Source: a virus. From it: 24,802 bases of DNA. The stretch is taken from positions 1-24,802 of IMG/VR virus record IMGVR_UViG_3300048586_000164; one strand, written 5' to 3'. Below, in pieces: positions 9,729-24,700 of this stretch (its first letter is position 1; every line of letters starts with the position of its first letter). The translations under genes and the position numbers were made by a program. Under the pieces are notes generated by a model. The model searched no databases. It was not told the origin of the DNA and saw only the letters and a program-made list of their open reading frames with translations.

Positions 9729-11339
9729 TCAGGTGGTGTCGCCGACGACGGCGGCCGGGTCGCCGCCCTGGTTGAACGCGTCGACGGCGGCCTGCCCGGT
9801 CATGGACGCCGGCGCGATGAAGTTGCCGTCCTCGTCGGTGAGCTCGTCGAGGATCTCGTCGGGCTCGGCCACGCCGAGGGCCTGCAGCAGCAGCCGTGCG
9901 ACGACGAGCGGGGGCAGCTTCTCGGTCTGGTCGGCCAGCGCGATCGCCTTCACCAGCACGTCCACGGCGATGTCGTCGTCGAGGTCGGGCCAGTCGACGT
10001 CCACGGTGGGGTTGGTGTCACCGGCGAGGGTGACGATGAGGCGGTCGCCGTCGCGGGTGACGACGCCCTTGAGGGGTCCGCGGGGCGCGATGACGGCCTG
10101 GTCGATGACGTAGCCGAGGATCTGCTTCCACACGCCGGTCCAGAGGGCGCGGCGCGTGTCGGCCATGAGCTCGGTGGGGCGGTCGAGAGTCTCGGCGGTG
10201 GCGCGGGCACCGGTGGTGCCGGGGTCGCCGAGGAGCATCGTGACGGGGACGTCGAGGCCGGCGGCGACCATCGCCGCCAGGGGCCGGCCGGACTCGGAGT
10301 CGATGGTGGCGCCGGACTTCGGGATGGCCTCGAGGGTGATGTCGGGGGTCATCACGGCGGCGCCGGTCTGGTTCGCGCCGGTGATGGGGTCGACTGCTGG
10401 GGCGGCGGCGAGGGCCTTGCGGATCTTCGCCTGCTTCGACCCCGGGGCGGTGGCCCGCCACGCGAAGCGGGACAGCGCCTTGATCAGCGTGGCCCAGTCC
10501 TCGAGGAACGTCTTGTACGCGCGCGCCCAGTCGATCGCGGCGTAGGCGTCGGGGATGCCGAACTTCCACCCGAGGGGCTTGTTCTCGGCCCATGCGTGCA
10601 CGACGGGTGCGTCCCAGAGGACCTCGGCGCCGTCGAGGGCCTTCGGTCGCGTGGCCGGCCAGTACCCGACGGCAGGGTGGTAGGTGACGACGTCGCGGGT
10701 GGTGACCTTCCCCGTCGCCGGGTCGACCGTGGTGGTGATGCAGCGGCGCTTGTAGAACCAGTGCTCGTCGCGGTCGTCCGGGTTGGTGATCACGTCGACG
10801 ATCTCCGCGAACGGGATCAGCCGCGGCACGACCTTCCCGGTCAGCGGGGAGGTGAACAGCGCGACGAAGAAGTTCCCGTCGACGCCGAGGCACCGCTCGA
10901 GTGTGGCGTGCGCTCCCGGCCCGGACAGCACCGTCGTCGTGGACTTGTCGTCGAGGAAGTCCTGCACCACGGCGTTGACGTCCTGCTCGGCCGGGTTGTT
11001 CAGGTCCTGGCCGGTGGCGCGGGCGCTGATCTGCAGCCCGTCGCCCCACACGTAGTAGAACCGCAGCGCCAGGCCACGCTTGATCAGCGGGTTCTTGATC
11101 GCCATCAGCTGGCACAGCGCCGTGAGCTTCCGCATGCCGTCGCGGGTGAACTCGAGCTCGCCCTGCGACGCGAGGCGGGTCCAGCCTTGGTCGTCGAGTG
11201 CGAGCTCGAGCTCGGCGAGGGCTTCGGTGAGCAGCTCGTTGGTGGCCCGCTCCCGGGTGAGTTCCTCGCTGAGGTCGACGGGGTCGGTGTCCGGGAGGGC
11301 AGCGACGGTGCCGCCGCGGAGCGCGTCGAGGAGTCCCAC
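9729..11339 (-). CDS. Portal protein
   Basis: A protein of about 536 residues that forms the dodecameric DNA gate at the capsid vertex. Features: N-terminal charged helix, MRKLTALCQLMAIKNPLIKRGLALRFYYVWGDGLQI (the portal wing-to-core motif) in the first 110 residues, VDGNFFVALFTSP, TLEAIPKSGATID in the stem-crown region, and LDVPVTMLLGDPGTTGARATAETLDRP, a typical portal helix, near residue 370. The C-terminal 120 residues are acidic. Start: GTG at 11339 is favoured because GGAGG lies eight bases upstream; the in-frame GTG at 11345 would leave only two bases between. The gene follows the large terminase by 19 bases. High confidence. Confidence 0.9.
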   Translation of the reverse strand: MGLLDALRGGTVAALPDTDPVDLSEELTRERATNELLTEALAELELALDDQGWTRLASQGELEFTRDGMRKLTALCQLMAIKNPLIKRGLALRFYYVWGDGLQISARATGQDLNNPAEQDVNAVVQDFLDDKSTTTVLSGPGAHATLERCLGVDGNFFVALFTSPLTGKVVPRLIPFAEIVDVITNPDDRDEHWFYKRRCITTTVDPATGKVTTRDVVTYHPAVGYWPATRPKALDGAEVLWDAPVVHAWAENKPLGWKFGIPDAYAAIDWARAYKTFLEDWATLIKALSRFAWRATAPGSKQAKIRKALAAAPAVDPITGANQTGAAVMTPDITLEAIPKSGATIDSESGRPLAAMVAAGLDVPVTMLLGDPGTTGARATAETLDRPTELMADTRRALWTGVWKQILGYVIDQAVIAPRGPLKGVVTRDGDRLIVTLAGDTNPTVDVDWPDLDDDIAVDVLVKAIALADQTEKLPPLVVARLLLQALGVAEPDEILDELTDEDGNFIAPASMTGQAAVDAFNQGGDPAAVVGDTT

Positions 11340-11358
11340 GGTCACCGCCTCCGGGGTG

Positions 11359-13842
11359 CTAGTACGGGCTGATGGTCGAGTCGTCGAAGTCGTCGGGCTC
11401 GTAGACGTCGTCGCCGGCGAGCAGCGGCGAGAGGAGCAGCCGGTTCAGGCCCTGCGACATGGCGTCCACGGCGTCGTCATGTGCGCCGTTCGGGAACGCC
11501 GCGGCCTCGTCGACGAGGTCGACCACCCACGCGCACCCGTCGATGAGCGGGTCGGGCAGCCACACCTGGCCGGCCTCGATGAACGGCGCGACCGCGGAGG
11601 CGCGTGCGAGCTTCGACCCGTCCGGCTCCACGGGGATGAGACCGGGCACGGTGCGGCGCAGCATGTTGATCACGGCGGTGCCGTTGGCCTTGTCCTCGAC
11701 GACCTTCGCGATCGCCTGGGGCCACCTGGCGGCGAGGTTCTGCACGGCGGTCTTCGTGGCGACGAAGTCGAGGCGGGCTCGGATCATGTCGACGGCGTAC
11801 ACCTGGGTGCCGCGTCGGGCGAGGACCAGACCGACGACGTAGTCGGAGCCGTCGGTGTCCTTGAACGCCATGTCCCAGGAGTGGATGACCTCGTCGACGT
11901 TGGGGATCCAGCGGGTGCCGTCGTCGCGGACGATCCACTGGGCGCTCGCGTACTGCCGCCACCAGGGGCGCTTCCACACGCCGCCTTCGACCGGTGCTGG
12001 GCGGCCCTGGTAGAGGGCGTTCCAGTCGCGGGTGCCGGCCTGGACCTTGACCTGCTCCCACTCGCGGTCGCCTCGGGGTTGCCCGGTGCGTTCGTTGACG
12101 CGGGCGGAGAGCATGAACTCGCCGGGCTCACGGCCGAGGGGGTCGGTCTCACCCTTGGCGGGGTCGTGGTCGGCCTGCGCGGGGATGTTGATGACCCGCC
12201 ACCGGTGCCCGTCCTCGCGGCCGAGGAGCCACCCGGCGAGGTCATCCTCATGCCATCTCGTGAGCACGAGGACGACGGGTGCGCCGGGTGCGAGACGCGT
12301 GGATCCGGTGGACGTCCAGAACGTCTTCGCGCGCCGGCGGTACGCCTCGGACTCGGCCTGCACGCGGTTGGTGACCGGGTCGTCGATGAACAGCCAGTCC
12401 GCGGGCCGGCCTGTGATGCCACCGGAAAGGCCAATGGAGCGGACACCGCCGCGGTGCCCGGCGATGCGCCACGACGACACGGCCCCATTGTCGGGCGCGA
12501 TGCGCAGCCCGAGGTCGAGGGCGCCCTCGTCGCCCTGGTTGTTCACGATCAGGGAGCGGATGTCGCGGCCGAACTCGTTGGCGAGGTCCGCGCCGTAGGA
12601 CACGACGACGATGCGCCGGTCGGGGTTGCGGGTCAACGCCCACAGGGGCCCGACCTTCGTGACCCTGGTCGAGTTGTGTGTCGGGAGGAGCGAACGGCCC
12701 GCGAGGTAGGTGTGGCTGGGACTGTCGACCTCGATGCAGCGGACGGGGACGGTCGCTGCTGGTTCGGCCCACACGTACCGGGTCAGGGCGACGGAGGAGT
12801 TCTTGCAGCGCTCCCGGTGCCGGGGCAGCCAGGCAGCGTCAGCGCGGTAGAACCGGACCCGGAACCGTGGCCCGATGTCGCGGCCGTTCAGTCGAGCCCG
12901 GTCCTCGGTGATGGTGGCCTTCGCGCCGAGGGTGTACACGAGCTCGCGGACGTCGTCAGCGAGCCGCCGGCTGATCGAGGTGTACTCGACCTGGCCCTTG
13001 AGGGTGACGTGCCCGTCTGTGTCGACGAGGCCTTGGAGGAGCGCGAGGCGCTGCTCGGTAGACGCACGCAAGTACTGGACCGGGATGTGCTTGTTGCCCC
13101 AGACGTTGAGGTTCTGGAGCGCCTGGCGGACCGGTGACGTCGCGCTGCTGCCGCCCTCGGGGGCGAGGCTGTACCGGTACGGCGCGGTCATCTTGCGGCA
13201 CGGGTAACCGGCGGCGCGGATGCGGTCCGCGATCTCAGGGTCGGCGATCGTGATGGTCGCCGACGTCGAGGTGCCGTCGCCGAGCCAGGACCCGAGCAGG
13301 TAGGGGTCAAGTGGCAGGTCCGCGTGGGGTAGGCGCAGCTCGGAGGGTGCGGTTATCTGCGCGTTTTTGCTGCGAGGCTCTGCCAGGACACGGGTCTCGA
13401 CGGTGCGCTCACCTCTGCGCCGGTCGAGGCGGGCGACCCACTCGTGATCGGCGTCCGCGACGATCCGTTCCCCGTCGCCGGTGCGGACCGTGAGGCATGG
13501 TCGGCCGGTCCAGACGGGTGAGGTCCAGGTGACGGTGCACTGGTTGCCGTGACGGTCGAACACCTGATCGCCGACCTCGATGTCACCCATGGTCGTCCAC
13601 CCGGTGGGGGTGGCGATGGGGGTGTCGAGGGCTAGAGCTTTCCCCTCCTGCGGGGGCATCGAGATGATCAGGCGGTCGCATTCGCCGTTCTCGACGTCGA
13701 CGAGGGCTTGGTCGATGAGTTCGAGGGCCGGGGTCTGGCGTGTGGTGGGGTCGACGGCGGCGGCGAGCTCGCCGGGGGTGGCCCAGTGGCGGTGGACACG
13801 CTCGAGGCGCTCGGTGAACAGCTCGAGGGTCGGGCTGCTCAT
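11359..13842 (-). CDS. terL: Large terminase subunit interrupted by an intein
   Basis: An 827-residue precursor. Extein-N (1-68) ends in PPQEGK and extein-C begins at Ser391, together making the Walker A motif PPQEGKS of the packaging ATPase. After splicing the enzyme is 505 residues, normal for terminases. Extein-C carries the Walker B WLFIDDP at about 483-489, the coupling motif LVLTRWHEDD at 525-534, and an RNase H-like nuclease with Asp656 (SWDMAF), VEDKANG at 715-721 and HDDAVDA at 788-794. It cuts concatemeric DNA and pumps it into the prohead through the portal encoded next. Start: ATG at 13842. Its leader contains a hairpin that masks the upstream G-run. No frameshift; the insertion is in frame. 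Confidence 0.92.
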   Translation of the reverse strand: MSSPTLELFTERLERVHRHWATPGELAAAVDPTTRQTPALELIDQALVDVENGECDRLIISMPPQEGKALALDTPIATPTGWTTMGDIEVGDQVFDRHGNQCTVTWTSPVWTGRPCLTVRTGDGERIVADADHEWVARLDRRRGERTVETRVLAEPRSKNAQITAPSELRLPHADLPLDPYLLGSWLGDGTSTSATITIADPEIADRIRAAGYPCRKMTAPYRYSLAPEGGSSATSPVRQALQNLNVWGNKHIPVQYLRASTEQRLALLQGLVDTDGHVTLKGQVEYTSISRRLADDVRELVYTLGAKATITEDRARLNGRDIGPRFRVRFYRADAAWLPRHRERCKNSSVALTRYVWAEPAATVPVRCIEVDSPSHTYLAGRSLLPTHNSTRVTKVGPLWALTRNPDRRIVVVSYGADLANEFGRDIRSLIVNNQGDEGALDLGLRIAPDNGAVSSWRIAGHRGGVRSIGLSGGITGRPADWLFIDDPVTNRVQAESEAYRRRAKTFWTSTGSTRLAPGAPVVLVLTRWHEDDLAGWLLGREDGHRWRVINIPAQADHDPAKGETDPLGREPGEFMLSARVNERTGQPRGDREWEQVKVQAGTRDWNALYQGRPAPVEGGVWKRPWWRQYASAQWIVRDDGTRWIPNVDEVIHSWDMAFKDTDGSDYVVGLVLARRGTQVYAVDMIRARLDFVATKTAVQNLAARWPQAIAKVVEDKANGTAVINMLRRTVPGLIPVEPDGSKLARASAVAPFIEAGQVWLPDPLIDGCAWVVDLVDEAAAFPNGAHDDAVDAMSQGLNRLLLSPLLAGDDVYEPDDFDDSTISPY
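12673..13638 (-). mobile_element. Class 3-type intein with LAGLIDADG endonuclease, in terL Walker A motif
   Basis: The 322-residue insert (precursor residues 69-390) is an intein. It starts with Ala, not Cys or Ser, so the normal first nucleophile is absent. Instead it has the three class 3 markers: Trp135 in DADHEW (block B), Cys369 in VRCIEVDSPS (block F) and Thr388 in PTHN (block G), and then Asn390 with Ser391 as first extein residue. Cys369 would take over as the initiating nucleophile. Two LAGLIDADG helices are visible, LLGSWLGDG at 182-190 and LLQGLVDTDG at 268-277; both key aspartates (Asp189, Asp276) are present, so the homing enzyme may be active. Insertion in the P-loop means unspliced terminase cannot bind ATP. 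Confidence 0.92.
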
Positions 13843-13902: not shown

Positions 13903-13930
13903 ACCGTACCGGGGAACTGCGGCTGGTCAA
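13903..13930 (-). promoter_or_regulatory. Candidate sigma70-type promoter of the late operon
   Basis: On the minus strand TTGACC (13925-13930) and TACGGT (13903-13908) are separated by 16 bases, fitting the actinobacterial TTGACN / TANNNT pattern. It lies at the only noncoding gap (84 bp) between the early operon and terL. A start near 13896 would give a leader of about 55 bases containing the hairpin. Found by eye only. Confidence 0.4.
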
Positions 13931-14913
13931 GCACCACGTCGACCGTCGGCGCGTCGGCTGCTCTTGGCCTGCTCCCGCAACTGCGCCTCGATGGCGAGGT
14001 CGCGGACGTCGCCGACGCGGTACAGGCGGCGCCCGCCCTGGTCGCGGCCGTGGGAGGCGAGGCGTCCGGAGCGTTCCCACCAGCGGATCTGGTCTTCGCG
14101 GACGCCGGTGCCGGTGGTGGTGGCGAGGCCGCGGGCGATGTCGGACGCGGTGGCGAGGCGGTCGTCGAGTGCCTCGGCGAGCCAGGCTCGGCGTTGGGCG
14201 ACGTCGTGCTCGGTGCCGCAGGTGTGGCAGCGGGTGGTGCGGCAGCGGTCGCAGAGGTGATCCTTGCCCTGGTCGGTGTGGTCGACGGCGTAGACCTCCT
14301 CGGGGCAGGGGATGCCGGTGTTGAGGGGGTCGGCGAGGCAGGTGCCGAGGTACAGGCGGGGTGCGGGGGTGTCGGCGGCGGTGAGGAGCTGCCGGCTGGT
14401 CCGGTCGATGGCGGCCTTGAACGCGGCCCCGGAGTCGGTGCGGGTCAGGAAGGGGACGTTGTCGAGGAGGATCTCGACGAGGAGCCGGTGGGAGCTGGTG
14501 ACGATCCAGCGGGGTCCGGTGAGGTGGTCGCAGTACTGGCGGAGCCGGTCGCGGCGTGCCTGGCCTGCGTCGTTGAGGCCGCGACGCGGGGGTCGGTCGA
14601 GCTGCTCGAGGGCGGCGAGCTCGCGGTCGATCGCGGGGAGGGTGGACTTGGCCCAGGACACGAGCATGACCATCGCGGCGGTGAGGGTCTTCGACGCGCG
14701 TTCGTCCCACGCGATGACGGGGTCAGCGGAGGAGCGGGCGCCGTTGCGGCTACCGGTCGCGGTCTGGCGCGTGATGGTCAGGTTGAGGTCATCGACGAGG
14801 TCGGGCAGGGCTGCGAGTCCGCGGCGGAGGTCGTTGAGGCAGCCGGGGCACAGGGCGCTGGTGGACGCGGTGGGGATGGGCTTCCCGCAGTCGCAGGTCG
14901 GTGCGGTCGTCAT
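13927..14913 (-). CDS. Zinc-binding and helix-turn-helix protein upstream of terL
   Basis: A protein of 328 residues. An N-terminal zinc-ribbon-like motif uses Cys7, Cys9, Cys22 and Cys25. A second cluster at 221-232 reads C-x2-C-x4-C-x2-C with further Cys at 192 and 203. The C-terminal part (about 254-310) looks like a MerR-like winged helix-turn-helix: ASDIARGLATTTG, EDQIRWWERSGRLASHGRD, then RRLYRVGDVRDLA. Similar proteins occur just upstream of the terminase in actinophages and may act as late regulators or DNA-recognition (small terminase-like) factors; I cannot decide between these. ATG at 14913 is nine bases after the stop of the zinc-ribbon gene, with GGGGG upstream. The candidate late promoter starts at its 3' end. 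Confidence 0.65.
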   Translation of the reverse strand: MTTAPTCDCGKPIPTASTSALCPGCLNDLRRGLAALPDLVDDLNLTITRQTATGSRNGARSSADPVIAWDERASKTLTAAMVMLVSWAKSTLPAIDRELAALEQLDRPPRRGLNDAGQARRDRLRQYCDHLTGPRWIVTSSHRLLVEILLDNVPFLTRTDSGAAFKAAIDRTSRQLLTAADTPAPRLYLGTCLADPLNTGIPCPEEVYAVDHTDQGKDHLCDRCRTTRCHTCGTEHDVAQRRAWLAEALDDRLATASDIARGLATTTGTGVREDQIRWWERSGRLASHGRDQGGRRLYRVGDVRDLAIEAQLREQAKSSRRADGRRGA

Positions 14914-17445: not shown

Positions 17446-17825
17446 GCCTGTGCCTGCGCCTTCGGGTCGATGACGGTCGTGGGTGCCGGGACCTCACGCA
17501 GCGGCTCGAACGTCAGCTGGTTGGGGTCGTTGCGCGTGAGGTTGCCGTCGGCGTCGGCGAAGAACACCGACACCTTCCGGTCGTGGACGGGGACCTTGGA
17601 CTTCACGTCGTCGGTGACCGTGAGGGTGTTCTCGGTGGCGCCCTTCACTCGGGCGACCGTGACGGTCAGGGTCAGCGACCCCTTCTTCCCGGTGTCGCGG
17701 ACCGCGGCGACGAGCTCGTGGAGCTGCTGGGAGAGCTCGTCGTGGGTGCGGCCGCCGGACATCTCACGCAGGGCGTCTGCGAACGGGCGCACCCGCGGGT
17801 CGGGGGTCGGTCGTCGGGTGCTCAT
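17442..17825 (-). CDS. Conserved phage protein preceding DUF2303
   Basis: A protein of 127 residues. N-terminal half helical (RPFADALREMSGGRTHDELSQQLHELVAAV), middle beta-rich (KKGSLTLTVTVARVKG, NTLTVTDDVKSKVP, KVSVFFADADGNL), and a Pro/Ala tail ending KAQAQA. Proteins of this shape are commonly encoded directly before DUF2303 in actinophages, so the two probably act together. No known function. Starts and stops overlap both neighbours by four bases (ATGA), indicating tightly coupled translation. Confidence 0.65.
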   Translation of the reverse strand: MSTRRPTPDPRVRPFADALREMSGGRTHDELSQQLHELVAAVRDTGKKGSLTLTVTVARVKGATENTLTVTDDVKSKVPVHDRKVSVFFADADGNLTRNDPNQLTFEPLREVPAPTTVIDPKAQAQA

Positions 17826-19153
17826 GCAGTGCTCTCCTCAGGGGTGATAGGGGCGATCAGTGCTGTTTCGAAGTCGCTGGGCTCGTACCCGAGCGCTGTG
17901 GCGACGCGGATCGACGGGATGTGGGAGTCGTCCCACGTCGACCCGCAGCGGATGACGTCGAACGAGAGCGCGAGGAGCGCCTTCCACGCCTGGTGCTCGC
18001 TCAGGTCGCCCGCCCAGTCGCGGCGGGCGTCGACGACGGCCTCGTCCCACGCGTTCGCGTCCTCGGGCACCGGCGGCATACCGAGGTAGGTGGCGACCGA
18101 CTCGTCGTAGTCGCTGTTGTGGATCCAGTCCTCGACCAGCAGGCGCAGCAGCGGCGCACGCTCCTCGTCCTTCACCAGGAGCTTGTCGAGACGGCCGTGC
18201 AGCCACCCGGCCCGGACCGTGCGGGCGGTCTCAAGGTCCGCGTCGCGCTGCTCGCGCTGCGCGATGCGCTCCTCCGCCTCAGCGCGGCGGGCAGCCTCCT
18301 CCGGGGTGTCAGGGGGCAGCTCGTCCTCGTCGTCGTCCTGCTCGAGCACGGACGGTGCGCACAGCATCCAGCCGCCGCCCGCCTCGACGAAGAAGTGCGG
18401 CCCGTCGAGACCGTCGAGGAGAGACTCGACCTCTGCGGTCTTGATACGGGCGGCCTCCCAGGACGACAGGACCGACGCGCCGGCGTCGCGGCGCTCTGCG
18501 GTGGCCCAGCCGCGCTCGGCGCACGCCTTCTCGACGAGCTCCCGGGCGACGCGGATGTTCGCGGTCTCGCGAGCCCGCTCCACGGCCCACGTGAAGTTCG
18601 ACCCACCGACCTGTCGAGCGAGACCGTCGTACTCGGGTGTGCCGACGAACTCGACCAGTGTCTCCGCCTCCGCGAGGGTGACCTGCCCGGTGTGGACCTT
18701 CTCGAGGGTCTTCTCGGGGAGCTTGGCAAGCGCGAGCCTGCTCCGGACGGTCTTCGTCGACCGGCCCGTCGCCTTCGCGGCCTTCGCCTGGGTCATGCCC
18801 GGGAAGGCGACGAGCTGGGCGTAGGCGTGGGCTTCCTCGACGGCGGTGAGGTCGGCGCGCTGGGTGTTCTCGACGAGCATCGCGGCGAGCTGCTTGGCGG
18901 GGGTGTCGAGGTCTTCGCGGAGCATCGCGGGCACGGTGGCGAGACCGGCCCGCTTCGCGGCGGCGAGGCGGCGGTGCCCGGCGATGAGCCGGTACTGCGT
19001 GCCGTTGAGCGGCGCGAGCACGAGGGGCTCGAGGAGGCCGTGCTCGCTGATGGACGCGGTGAGGTCGGCGACGTTCCCGACGCTGCGGCGGGGGTTGGCG
19101 CCGTGGGGCTCGATGAGGGAGAGCCGGACCTCGGGCAGGTAGGTGGTGGTCAT
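17822..19153 (-). CDS. ParB-like protein (no ParA in window)
   Basis: A protein of 443 residues. The N-terminal ParB/Srx-type domain (about 1-100) includes HGLLEPLVLAP, the AGHRR nucleotide-binding motif at 59-63 in RLIAGHRRLAAAKRAG, and ENTQRADLTAVEEAHAY at 95-111. A helix-turn-helix follows (MTQAKAAKATGRSTKTVRSRLALAKLP, 120-146). The remaining 300 residues are not typical of chromosomal ParB: an Ala/Glu-rich stretch with acidic run DDDEDELPPDTPEEA and a helical C-terminal part with several Trp. Chromosomal ParB uses CTP and parS; here the partner ATPase is not seen, so the protein may act as a regulator or DNA-organising factor rather than in partition. ATG start overlaps the upstream gene by four bases. 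Confidence 0.85.
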   Translation of the reverse strand: MTTTYLPEVRLSLIEPHGANPRRSVGNVADLTASISEHGLLEPLVLAPLNGTQYRLIAGHRRLAAAKRAGLATVPAMLREDLDTPAKQLAAMLVENTQRADLTAVEEAHAYAQLVAFPGMTQAKAAKATGRSTKTVRSRLALAKLPEKTLEKVHTGQVTLAEAETLVEFVGTPEYDGLARQVGGSNFTWAVERARETANIRVARELVEKACAERGWATAERRDAGASVLSSWEAARIKTAEVESLLDGLDGPHFFVEAGGGWMLCAPSVLEQDDDEDELPPDTPEEAARRAEAEERIAQREQRDADLETARTVRAGWLHGRLDKLLVKDEERAPLLRLLVEDWIHNSDYDESVATYLGMPPVPEDANAWDEAVVDARRDWAGDLSEHQAWKALLALSFDVIRCGSTWDDSHIPSIRVATALGYEPSDFETALIAPITPEESTA

Positions 19154-22420: not shown

Positions 22421-22713
22421 GCCGGCACCGCCATCAGCACCCACCGCGCCGGCGTCACGAGGACAGGGACCCGGTCGATGGAGCCGACCATGAGACCGCC
22501 GGGTTTGCGGTCGGTGCAGTCCTCGTCGAATACGGCAGCGATCGCGTCCTCGACGTCGGCCACGTCCGCAGCGGTGAGGACGTCGTTGTCGATGACGACG
22601 TGCACGGGGAACGGGAGGCGTGCGTTGATGGTGACTTCGACGCTGCGGGCGTCGACGACCGTGTACACGGCGGTGAGGGTGCGGGCCAGGTCGGCGCCTG
22701 TGTACGGCATCAC
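22417..22713 (-). CDS. Conserved small early protein, unknown function
   Basis: A protein of 98 residues (97 from the ATG) with beta-strand patterns (SVEVTINARLPFPVHVVIDN) and a helix ADVADVEDAIAAVFDEDC, ending in a beta hairpin with VPVLVTPARWVLMAV. No known family and no visible catalytic motif. The start is either GTG at 22713, giving the usual four-base overlap with the RecT stop, or the adjacent ATG at 22710. It lies directly after recT and so may be linked to recombination. Confidence 0.55.
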   Translation of the reverse strand: MMPYTGADLARTLTAVYTVVDARSVEVTINARLPFPVHVVIDNDVLTAADVADVEDAIAAVFDEDCTDRKPGGLMVGSIDRVPVLVTPARWVLMAVPA

Positions 22714-23798
22714 AGGTCACCACCGTCGGGGACCTCGCCGAGCTCGAGCGCGGCAGCGTCCAGTGCGCGCTGCACCTCGTCGCGCGTCAGGGTCCGCTTG
22801 TCGTGGACCACTCGACCCACCATGGCGCCGAGCCAGTCAAGGACGTCCTGCTTGTCCGTGATCCCAAGCTGCTCGAGCCGCTGGGACAGGCGGGTGGTCT
22901 GCACCCGGGTCGGCTTGCCGCTGGTGTCGACGACGACAGCGTCGGCGACGTCGTCGAGATGCGGACCGTCCGCGGGTTCGTCGTCGGGCTCGGGGTCGGG
23001 TGTGGTCGCTTCGTCGTCGGCCTTGATGTCGGCGGCCTTCGCGTTCAACGCGTTCTGCCAGTGCGCGTTCATCGCCTTGTCGTCGCGGATCGTCGCCCAG
23101 ATCCCACGGACCTCGTCCAGCGTCGTGGCGGCGTCGATGAGGGGCTGGTAGTCGACCGCCGCGATCGCGGGTGCCGGCGTCACGGTGGGGGCGTCGGCGC
23201 GGGACATCTCATCGGAGGTGTAGATCCCCGACAGGTCGTTGGGGAACGCCTTCCGCAGGGCGAGGGCCTCCGCGCACTTCGCGATCATCAGGGCGCCCTT
23301 CTCCACCCACATGCGCGTCGGGTCGCCCTTCTTGTCCGTGCCCACGTACTCCCGGTACAGGGCGACGGCGTAGAGGGGGGCGACGAATCCGGTGCGCAGG
23401 ACACCGACGCGGGCGGCGGCCGGCGGTGCCGGGTCGAGCCACACGTCGCGCCACACGCCGTCCGGGCCGCACCATTCGGGGCCGACCTGGCCGGCGTAGT
23501 CACCGGAGCGCTGCGCGATGATCCGCAGCCCGTCGATGGACGCCTGGATGGTCCACTTCTTCCGATAGGACCCGTCGAACTGGCGTTCGTTGCGGCCGAT
23601 CATGTAGATCTGGCGGGAGAACGGGTCGAGGCCGGTGCGCTGCGCGTAGTTGAGGAACACGACGAGGTCACCGTTGGAGGCCTCGTCGACGCCGAGCTGC
23701 CGCAGGGCGGCGCGCTGCTCGTCGGTCCACATCGCCTGGCTGGGGTCGATCGTCAGGGCGCTGCCCGTGCGGACAGCGACGTCGGCGTTGGTGCTCAT
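22710..23798 (-). CDS. recT: RecT/Bet-type single-strand annealing protein
   Basis: A protein of 362 residues. The Bet/RecT core covers about residues 25-195: GDLVVFLNYAQRTGLDPFSRQIYMIGR, then KWTIQASIDGLRIIAQRSGDYAGQ, PLYAVALYREYV, and WVEKGALMIAKCAEALALRKAFP...GIYTSDEM. It would anneal single strands made by the exonuclease encoded just upstream, promoting phage recombination. The C-terminal 150 residues are linker-rich and acidic (DIKADDEATTPDPEPDDEPAD), and the tail helix (GITDKQDVLDWLGAMVGRV) could bind a partner such as SSB. ATG at 23798 overlaps the exonuclease stop by four bases; upstream residues in the same frame are not coding. Very secure family. Confidence 0.92.
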   Translation of the reverse strand: MSTNADVAVRTGSALTIDPSQAMWTDEQRAALRQLGVDEASNGDLVVFLNYAQRTGLDPFSRQIYMIGRNERQFDGSYRKKWTIQASIDGLRIIAQRSGDYAGQVGPEWCGPDGVWRDVWLDPAPPAAARVGVLRTGFVAPLYAVALYREYVGTDKKGDPTRMWVEKGALMIAKCAEALALRKAFPNDLSGIYTSDEMSRADAPTVTPAPAIAAVDYQPLIDAATTLDEVRGIWATIRDDKAMNAHWQNALNAKAADIKADDEATTPDPEPDDEPADGPHLDDVADAVVVDTSGKPTRVQTTRLSQRLEQLGITDKQDVLDWLGAMVGRVVHDKRTLTRDEVQRALDAAALELGEVPDGGDL

Positions 23799-24700
23799 GC
23801 GTGGGCCTTCTTCCCGCGGGACTTGGTCAGATACGGGGCGGCGTCGCCGCGCCCAGGGACGCGCATCGCGACCGGGGCGCCGCCGTAGGTGGCGCGGCGC
23901 GCGGACCCCATGGCGTCGATCACGGCTGCGGACGCGGCGGTCTTCGCGGCCTCCGCGGCCTCGATCGCGGCCACGGCCTCGGCGTAGGCGACCGCGACGT
24001 CGGCGGGGAGCTCGACCGCGGTGTCGTCGATGTCGGGGTGCAACGCTCGAACGGCGCGGTACGTCTCGTCGTGACCGTCGAGGTCCGGTGCGGTGCCGGT
24101 GGTGATGGAGTCGAGGAACTCCGTGACCGCGTCCACCAGGAGGCCGGCCTCGAAGTCGTCGTAGCTGATGACGTACTCGCGGAACTCGAGGAACGCGGTC
24201 AGGACCGCGACGTGCGCGGTGCGCAGGCCGAGGACGTGCAGCCCCCACATCACCTGGACCCGGTACGCCGGCGGGATCTCGTCTGTGCCGGCCTTCCCCC
24301 ACTGGGAGTCGTCGGACGCGGTCTTGAACTCGAGGAGGATCGGCGCCGGTGCATCGCCGTGGGCGAGGCCGTCAGGGGTGGCCGCGAACCGCGGGTCGTC
24401 CAGGCTGCGCCAGGTCCCGGTCTCGGTGATCGCGAGGTCGGGGTGCTGGTCGGCGTACCAGGCGCGCACGGCGGGCTCGAGGTAGTGGCCGCGGCGCATC
24501 ACTGTGGACTCGGGGACCGGGGGGAGGTGACCGGCCATGCGCTGCCACAGCGAGTACCGGGACTCGAACGGGGACAGTCCCAGGACCGCGGCGACCTTCG
24601 ACGCGGTCATGAGCTGCAGCCACTCGGGGGTTCCGGGTGTGAGGTCGGGGACACTCACGGCGCGGGTGACGCCGGTAGTGGTGTCGAGGGTGCTGGTCAT
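23795..24700 (-). CDS. YqaJ-type viral exonuclease
   Basis: A protein of 301 residues. YqaJ/lambda-exonuclease-type nuclease motifs in order: LMTASKVAAVLGLSPF at 30-45, RRGHYLEPAVRAWYAD (Glu75), ATPDGLAHG (Asp110), LLEFKTA with Glu124 and Lys126, and YRVQVMWGLHVLG with Gln149. These form the PD-(D/E)xK site that digests 5' strands, giving 3' tails for the RecT protein encoded next. The last 60 residues are Ala-rich and helical. Start ATG at 24700, AAGGAG six bases upstream, so it may be a first gene of the operon or follow closely on another. All catalytic residues look intact. Confidence 0.92.
   Translation of the reverse strand: MTSTLDTTTGVTRAVSVPDLTPGTPEWLQLMTASKVAAVLGLSPFESRYSLWQRMAGHLPPVPESTVMRRGHYLEPAVRAWYADQHPDLAITETGTWRSLDDPRFAATPDGLAHGDAPAPILLEFKTASDDSQWGKAGTDEIPPAYRVQVMWGLHVLGLRTAHVAVLTAFLEFREYVISYDDFEAGLLVDAVTEFLDSITTGTAPDLDGHDETYRAVRALHPDIDDTAVELPADVAVAYAEAVAAIEAAEAAKTAASAAVIDAMGSARRATYGGAPVAMRVPGRGDAAPYLTKSRGKKAHA

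Follow-up and report, generated by a model that had tools for sequence, protein, structure and literature searches.

An apparently intact class 3 homing intein interrupting Walker A in a phage terminase large subunit

The terminase large subunit (TerL) encoded on virus record fragment IMGVR_UViG_3300048586_000164, the whole 24,802 bases of which constitute the window analysed here, is interrupted in its Walker A motif by an insert that we read, with a probability of about 0.94, as an ordinary, apparently intact homing intein of class 3. The 827-codon open reading frame at 11359-13842 on the minus strand runs in one frame, open throughout; the TerL flanks on either side of the insert matched Terminase_6N, Terminase_6C, psiM2_ORF9 and phrog_38, and LAGLIDADG_3 was matched inside the insert. 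The gene lies between a portal gene (9729-11345, phrog_10963) and an upstream gene (13927-14913) with a MerR-like C-terminal match. Elsewhere on the minus strand of the same fragment, at 22710-24700 and 17822-19153, are a RecE-like exonuclease with a RecT-like annealing protein, and a ParB-like protein. The features of the precursor are as follows, with the evidence for each in parentheses.

11359-13842, minus strand: terL precursor, a TerL of the Terminase_6/psiM2 type with an in-frame intein, 827 amino acids (single open frame and family matches)
13639-13842, minus strand: N-extein, residues 1-68, with Walker A PPQEGK at its end, 13639-13656 (comparison with intein-less relatives)
12673-13638, minus strand: insert read as a class 3 intein, residues 69-390 (322 amino acids), with a Hint splicing domain and a LAGLIDADG endonuclease (empty sites, motifs, PDB matches and model)
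13636-13638, minus strand: Ala69, intein residue 1, a non-nucleophile, block A (sequence)
13495-13497, minus strand: Cys116, intein Cys48, counterpart of the cysteine that acts as redox partner in Msm DnaBi1 (comparison with DnaBi1)
13444-13446, minus strand: His133, intein His65, block B catalytic histidine (alignment to class 3 inteins and relatives)
13438-13440, minus strand: Trp135, intein Trp67, W of the WCT triplet, block B:12 (alignment to class 3 inteins and relatives)
13273-13299, minus strand: first LAGLIDADG motif, LLGSWLGDG, catalytic Asp189 (sequence and relatives)
13012-13041, minus strand: second LAGLIDADG motif, LLQGLVDTDG, Asp274 and Asp276 (sequence and relatives)
12736-12738, minus strand: Cys369, intein Cys301, predicted initiating nucleophile, block F:4 (alignment to 6rix and relatives)
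12673-12681, minus strand: Thr388-His389-Asn390, block G, comprising the T of WCT (G:5) and the C-terminal Asn (alignment and relatives)
12670-12672, minus strand: Ser391, both +1 nucleophile and serine of the Walker A GK-S (sequence, empty sites and relatives)
11362-12672, minus strand: C-extein, the remaining ATPase domain and an RNase H-like nuclease domain (family matches and intein-less relatives)

The insertion point lies within the Walker A motif, with Lys68 on one side and Ser391 on the other. This junction is exact because roughly 75 intein-less relatives from viral contigs, reading PPQEGK-S/T or a close variant (the last hyphen marks the junction here and below), run through it uninterrupted; the closest of them, L003, reads PPQEGK-STRVTK without a gap and is 66-68% identical along the extein. 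An earlier note on this DNA had placed a 322-residue insert at 12673-13638, which coincides exactly with residues 69-390, and its claim that the ATP-binding loop is interrupted is upheld by the separation of the Walker A Lys from its Ser and by the empty sites of these relatives. The site is of the P-loop type known from TerL1-a inteins, a Walker A Lys followed by Ser or Thr, and here reads PPQEGK-S; the extein is not that of the TerL1-a hosts, which belong to Terminase_1, and consists of Terminase_6N/6C with psiM2_ORF9.

The residues expected of class 3 splicing are present in the insert. Position 1 is occupied by Ala69 in place of Cys or Ser, as had been noted earlier and as the junction fixed by the intein-less relatives bears out; block B reads D130-x-x-H133-x-W135 (H133-E-W135); W135, C369 and T388 make up the WCT triplet; and the terminal N390 is followed by the nucleophilic S391. 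In intein numbering, the window residues are D62, H65, W67, C301, T320, H321 and N322, and those of the class 3 intein Msm DnaBi1 are D62, H65, W67, C118, T137, H138 and N139 (PMC6195587); in the MchDnaB1 intein, a protease-like triad is built from the Cys, His and Thr (PMC7664689). The top PDB sequence matches of the insert were the class 3 DnaB inteins 6rix, 6riy and 6bs8 (E 1e-25 to 3e-27), and class 1 inteins in the PDB matched weakly, through the endonuclease only. When aligned with 6rix, Cys369 falls opposite the block F Cys of that solved class 3 intein. An AlphaFold model of the intein (pLDDT 97.0, pTM 0.93, alignment of 55 rows) has a Hint fold near those of solved class 3 inteins, superposing on 6bs8 with Z 23.0 and 1.3 Å over 124 residues of the splicing domain at 45% identity; over the whole length, the model matched PI-SceI with Z 27.8 and 3.0 Å over 313 residues.

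Viral contigs were scanned with two sub-alignments, and in both scans the matches listed included upwards of 500 related stretches. The set of relatives was drawn from 80 loci per scan together with loci found earlier, and 151 copies, complete over the catalytic columns, fell into 106 clusters at 70% identity. The equivalents of His65, Trp67, Cys301, Thr320 and Asn322 were invariant in all 106; His65, Trp67 and Thr320 were part of no pattern in the two scans, whereas in one scan the pattern for block F included Cys, so that the invariance of this residue is partly a result of selection. The Trp-Cys-Thr triad proposed in the earlier note thus stands, its three members being kept in 106/106 clusters, and the proposal that Cys369 is the likely block F initiator gains support from its pairing with the 6rix Cys and its retention in every cluster. 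Class 3 inteins in P-loops are common in viruses, since 100 of the 104 copies with a placeable first residue come after GK, AK or SK; all 104 come before Ser or Thr, and several less exactly placed copies start one residue late, again after GK. Divergent class 3 inteins occupy PPQEGK-S/T in related TerLs (L106, L177, L187, L188 and L189), and L002, whose 5' end is cut off, has a downstream intein junction identical to this site. Class 3 inteins had been described in the earlier note as much rarer than class 1, a view now less supported: more than 100 divergent examples were met in viral contigs, most of them right after a Walker A lysine, and the survey points to P-loops as the place where viral class 3 inteins chiefly reside, which tempers the idea of rarity.

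Other inteins were noticed as well. L096, L099, L101 and L104 are mini-inteins of class 3, 136-147 residues long and lacking an endonuclease, right after a Walker A GK; L104 lies in a gene of Nocardia asiatica with a P-loop of DnaB-like appearance. In the TerLs of CcrColossus (L085) and Bambus (L087), the inteins at the P-loop Lys open with Pro; a block F Cys is present (KCLTV and RCLTV, respectively), but the Trp and Thr of WCT are absent. L010 (4869-7643) is a related TerL with a different intein, which its Cys1 and Cys+1 mark as class 1, located in the nuclease domain just ahead of an FPNGxHDD motif; unlike this intein, the seven TerL intein sites of PMC5050341 all lie within the ATPase domain.

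By analogy with other class 3 inteins, Cys369, helped by His133 and Thr388 and near Trp135, would attack the Lys68-Ala69 bond, leaving the N-extein held as a thioester. The acyl group would pass from Cys369 to Ser391, cyclisation of Asn390 would release the intein, and an acyl shift would establish the native bond of a continuous PPQEGKS loop. Because the unspliced P-loop is not expected to bind ATP, packaging should wait for splicing, and its dependence on splicing in the window TerL is a sound inference. The further claim in the earlier note, that the insertion provides a direct on-switch for packaging, is less supported: five tested TerL inteins, none of them from the site of the window, splice quickly (PMC5050341), and relatives carry the intein only sporadically, so that packaging in this TerL family does not hinge on intein control.

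A conditional form of such a switch, in which an oxidised link between Cys116 (intein Cys48) and Cys369 would block splicing and the packaging ATPase would become active only in a reduced cell, appears unlikely, although there is a precedent for it: Msm DnaBi1, likewise a P-loop intein of class 3 and structurally close to the window intein, is switched in this way via Cys48-Cys118 (PMC6195587), and a Cys is found at position 48 in the window intein and in 72 of the 106 clusters. However, this Cys is missing in the other 34 clusters, most relatives of the window TerL are intein-less, and the quick splicing of the five tested TerL inteins (PMC5050341) also argues against such control; moreover, Cys48 is itself required for the splicing of DnaBi1 (PMC6195587), which offers an alternative reason for its conservation.

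Much less probable is a mere resemblance to class 3, the insert being in truth an intein of class 1 or 2 or an inactivated remnant. The lack of Cys or Ser at position 1 is shared with class 2 inteins and inactivated copies, but the full WCT triplet is accompanied by DxxH and a C-terminal THN-S, the nearest solved sequences belong to class 3, and the open frame keeps every catalytic and endonuclease residue intact. That the insert is a never-removed domain of the working terminase can practically be dismissed, for although the frame is open and unbroken, such a domain would hold the Walker A Lys and Ser apart, homologues without it show the exact junction, and all of the splicing residues are present.

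The endonuclease part of this class 3 homing intein contains two LAGLIDADG motifs with their catalytic aspartates, D189 in LLGSWLGDG and D274/D276 in LLQGLVDTDG, and matches LAGLIDADG_3; both aspartates had been called intact in the earlier note, and they are. Among the relatives, the equivalents of D206 and D208 (intein numbering) were conserved in 106/106 clusters and that of D121 in 101/106. Judging from these sequence features, the endonuclease likely drives homing into intein-less terL: it would cut intein-less genes at conserved codons of the P-loop, after which repair would copy the intein in. Two mycobacteriophage TerL inteins have been shown to cut intein-less alleles (PMC5050341). 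The relatives found included no near-identical phage pair with and without the intein, and the case for homing into the TerL Lys-Ser site is therefore drawn from distant relatives. The third-position GC content is 0.88 in the intein versus 0.91-0.94 in the exteins, weak base-composition evidence for recent acquisition.

The class 3 intein has moved between phages, because the intein and extein trees conflict strongly. Identity to the window in the intein versus the C-extein was 52% versus 74% for L002, 70% versus 57% for L106, and about 60% versus 38% for Gordonia phage YungMoney. The intein tree placed the window with L106 and YungMoney (100/99), whereas the extein tree placed it with L002 and the intein-less L003 (100/99). 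In AU tests, a forced grouping of window and L002 was rejected for the inteins (p 1e-72), and for the exteins the groupings of window with L106 (p 9e-6) and of window with L106 and YungMoney (p 4e-51) were rejected; the groups were chosen after the identities were known, so the p-values are nominal, and the likelihood differences are large. These results lend statistical support to the movement of such elements between the TerL genes of distant phages.

The same junction is marked in a second way in some intein-less TerLs. Two of the 80 nearest TerLs (L015, 5133; L069, 2129) have a frame broken exactly at the Walker A lysine, and pattern scans brought together nine distinct intein-less TerLs (L015, L069, L274, L292, L309, L312, L315/L319, L326 and L379) in which TerL continues after GAG GGA AAA in the -1 frame, from the Walker A serine onwards. 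As a heptamer, G_GGA_AAA belongs to the classic -1 slippery sites. An in-frame version with five A residues was met in one distinct case (L017), so that sequencing loss of one A is unlikely as a general cause, although single records may be affected. In most of the frameshifted TerLs, hairpins start within about 6 bases downstream, with -21 to -31 kcal/mol over 55 bases, against a mean of -17 kcal/mol for the downstream hairpin region of the in-frame relatives (n = 73). Covariation in the downstream hairpin was no better than in shuffles and gave no support for a shared helix; the case for frameshifting rests, therefore, on the slippery site and the frame. The frameshifted state is scattered, occurring in at least 6 places in a quick TerL tree. 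From its sequence context, the GGGAAAA frameshift at the TerL Lys-Ser junction is probably programmed -1 ribosomal frameshifting; a putative -1 frameshift at a different sequence has been proposed for another phage terL (PMC9030533). A broader idea, itself unlikely, is that the Walker A Lys-Ser junction of TerL is a real control point: in phages of a single TerL family, a class 3 intein or else a -1 ribosomal frameshift, placed exactly there, would impose an extra, possibly regulated post-transcription step on the production of full-length packaging ATPase, and in the window phage this step would be a redox-sensitive splice.

The closest solved systems are the class 3 DnaB inteins (Msm DnaBi1, 6bs8; MchDnaB1, 6rix/6riy), which share with the window intein Ala1, Cys48, DxxH-x-W, the block F Cys and THN-S, at 45% identity and 1.3-2.0 Å over the splicing domain; Msm DnaBi1 likewise sits in a P-loop. 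In contrast to the window intein, which has a full LAGLIDADG endonuclease and resides in a phage TerL, these are mini-inteins without an endonuclease in a bacterial helicase. Within TerL, the TerL1-a group of mycobacteriophage inteins, published in 2016, occupies the P-loop site between the Walker A Lys and Thr (PMC5050341). The intein of Mycobacterium phage Eureka fits this site, and we infer from its insertion site that it belongs to the published group; as read here, it has Ala1 and the W, C and T of class 3, and it is 41.5% identical to the window intein. TerL1-a hosts are of the Terminase_1 family with Thr at +1, whereas the window TerL is Terminase_6-type with Ser at +1. Bethlehem TerL1-c, grouped with class 3 inteins in PMC5050341, is among the mycobacteriophage TerL inteins that splice quickly in laboratory tests. 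The intein-containing TerL precursors of Eureka (L090) and Gordonia phage Verity (L083) are labelled 'exonuclease' in RefSeq.

Nearer to the window, Gordonia phage YungMoney (MZ150791, L082) has a class 3 intein of approximately 59-60% identity at the same GK-S junction, although its exteins are only 38% identical, its penultimate residue is Arg where the window has His, and it is annotated merely as 'terminase'. The closest intein among the matches listed, at 70% identity, is that of L106 (IMGVR_UViG_3300009095_001348), an uncultivated virus with the same site and the same TerL family, and exteins 57% identical to the window. Class 3 inteins are handy for protein engineering because they do not require a first-residue nucleophile. 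The window intein adds to an already known kind, the P-loop class 3 inteins of TerL, here in one of Terminase_6 type, and contributes, at a recurrent site, a class 3 intein that is full-length, apparently intact and equipped with its endonuclease.
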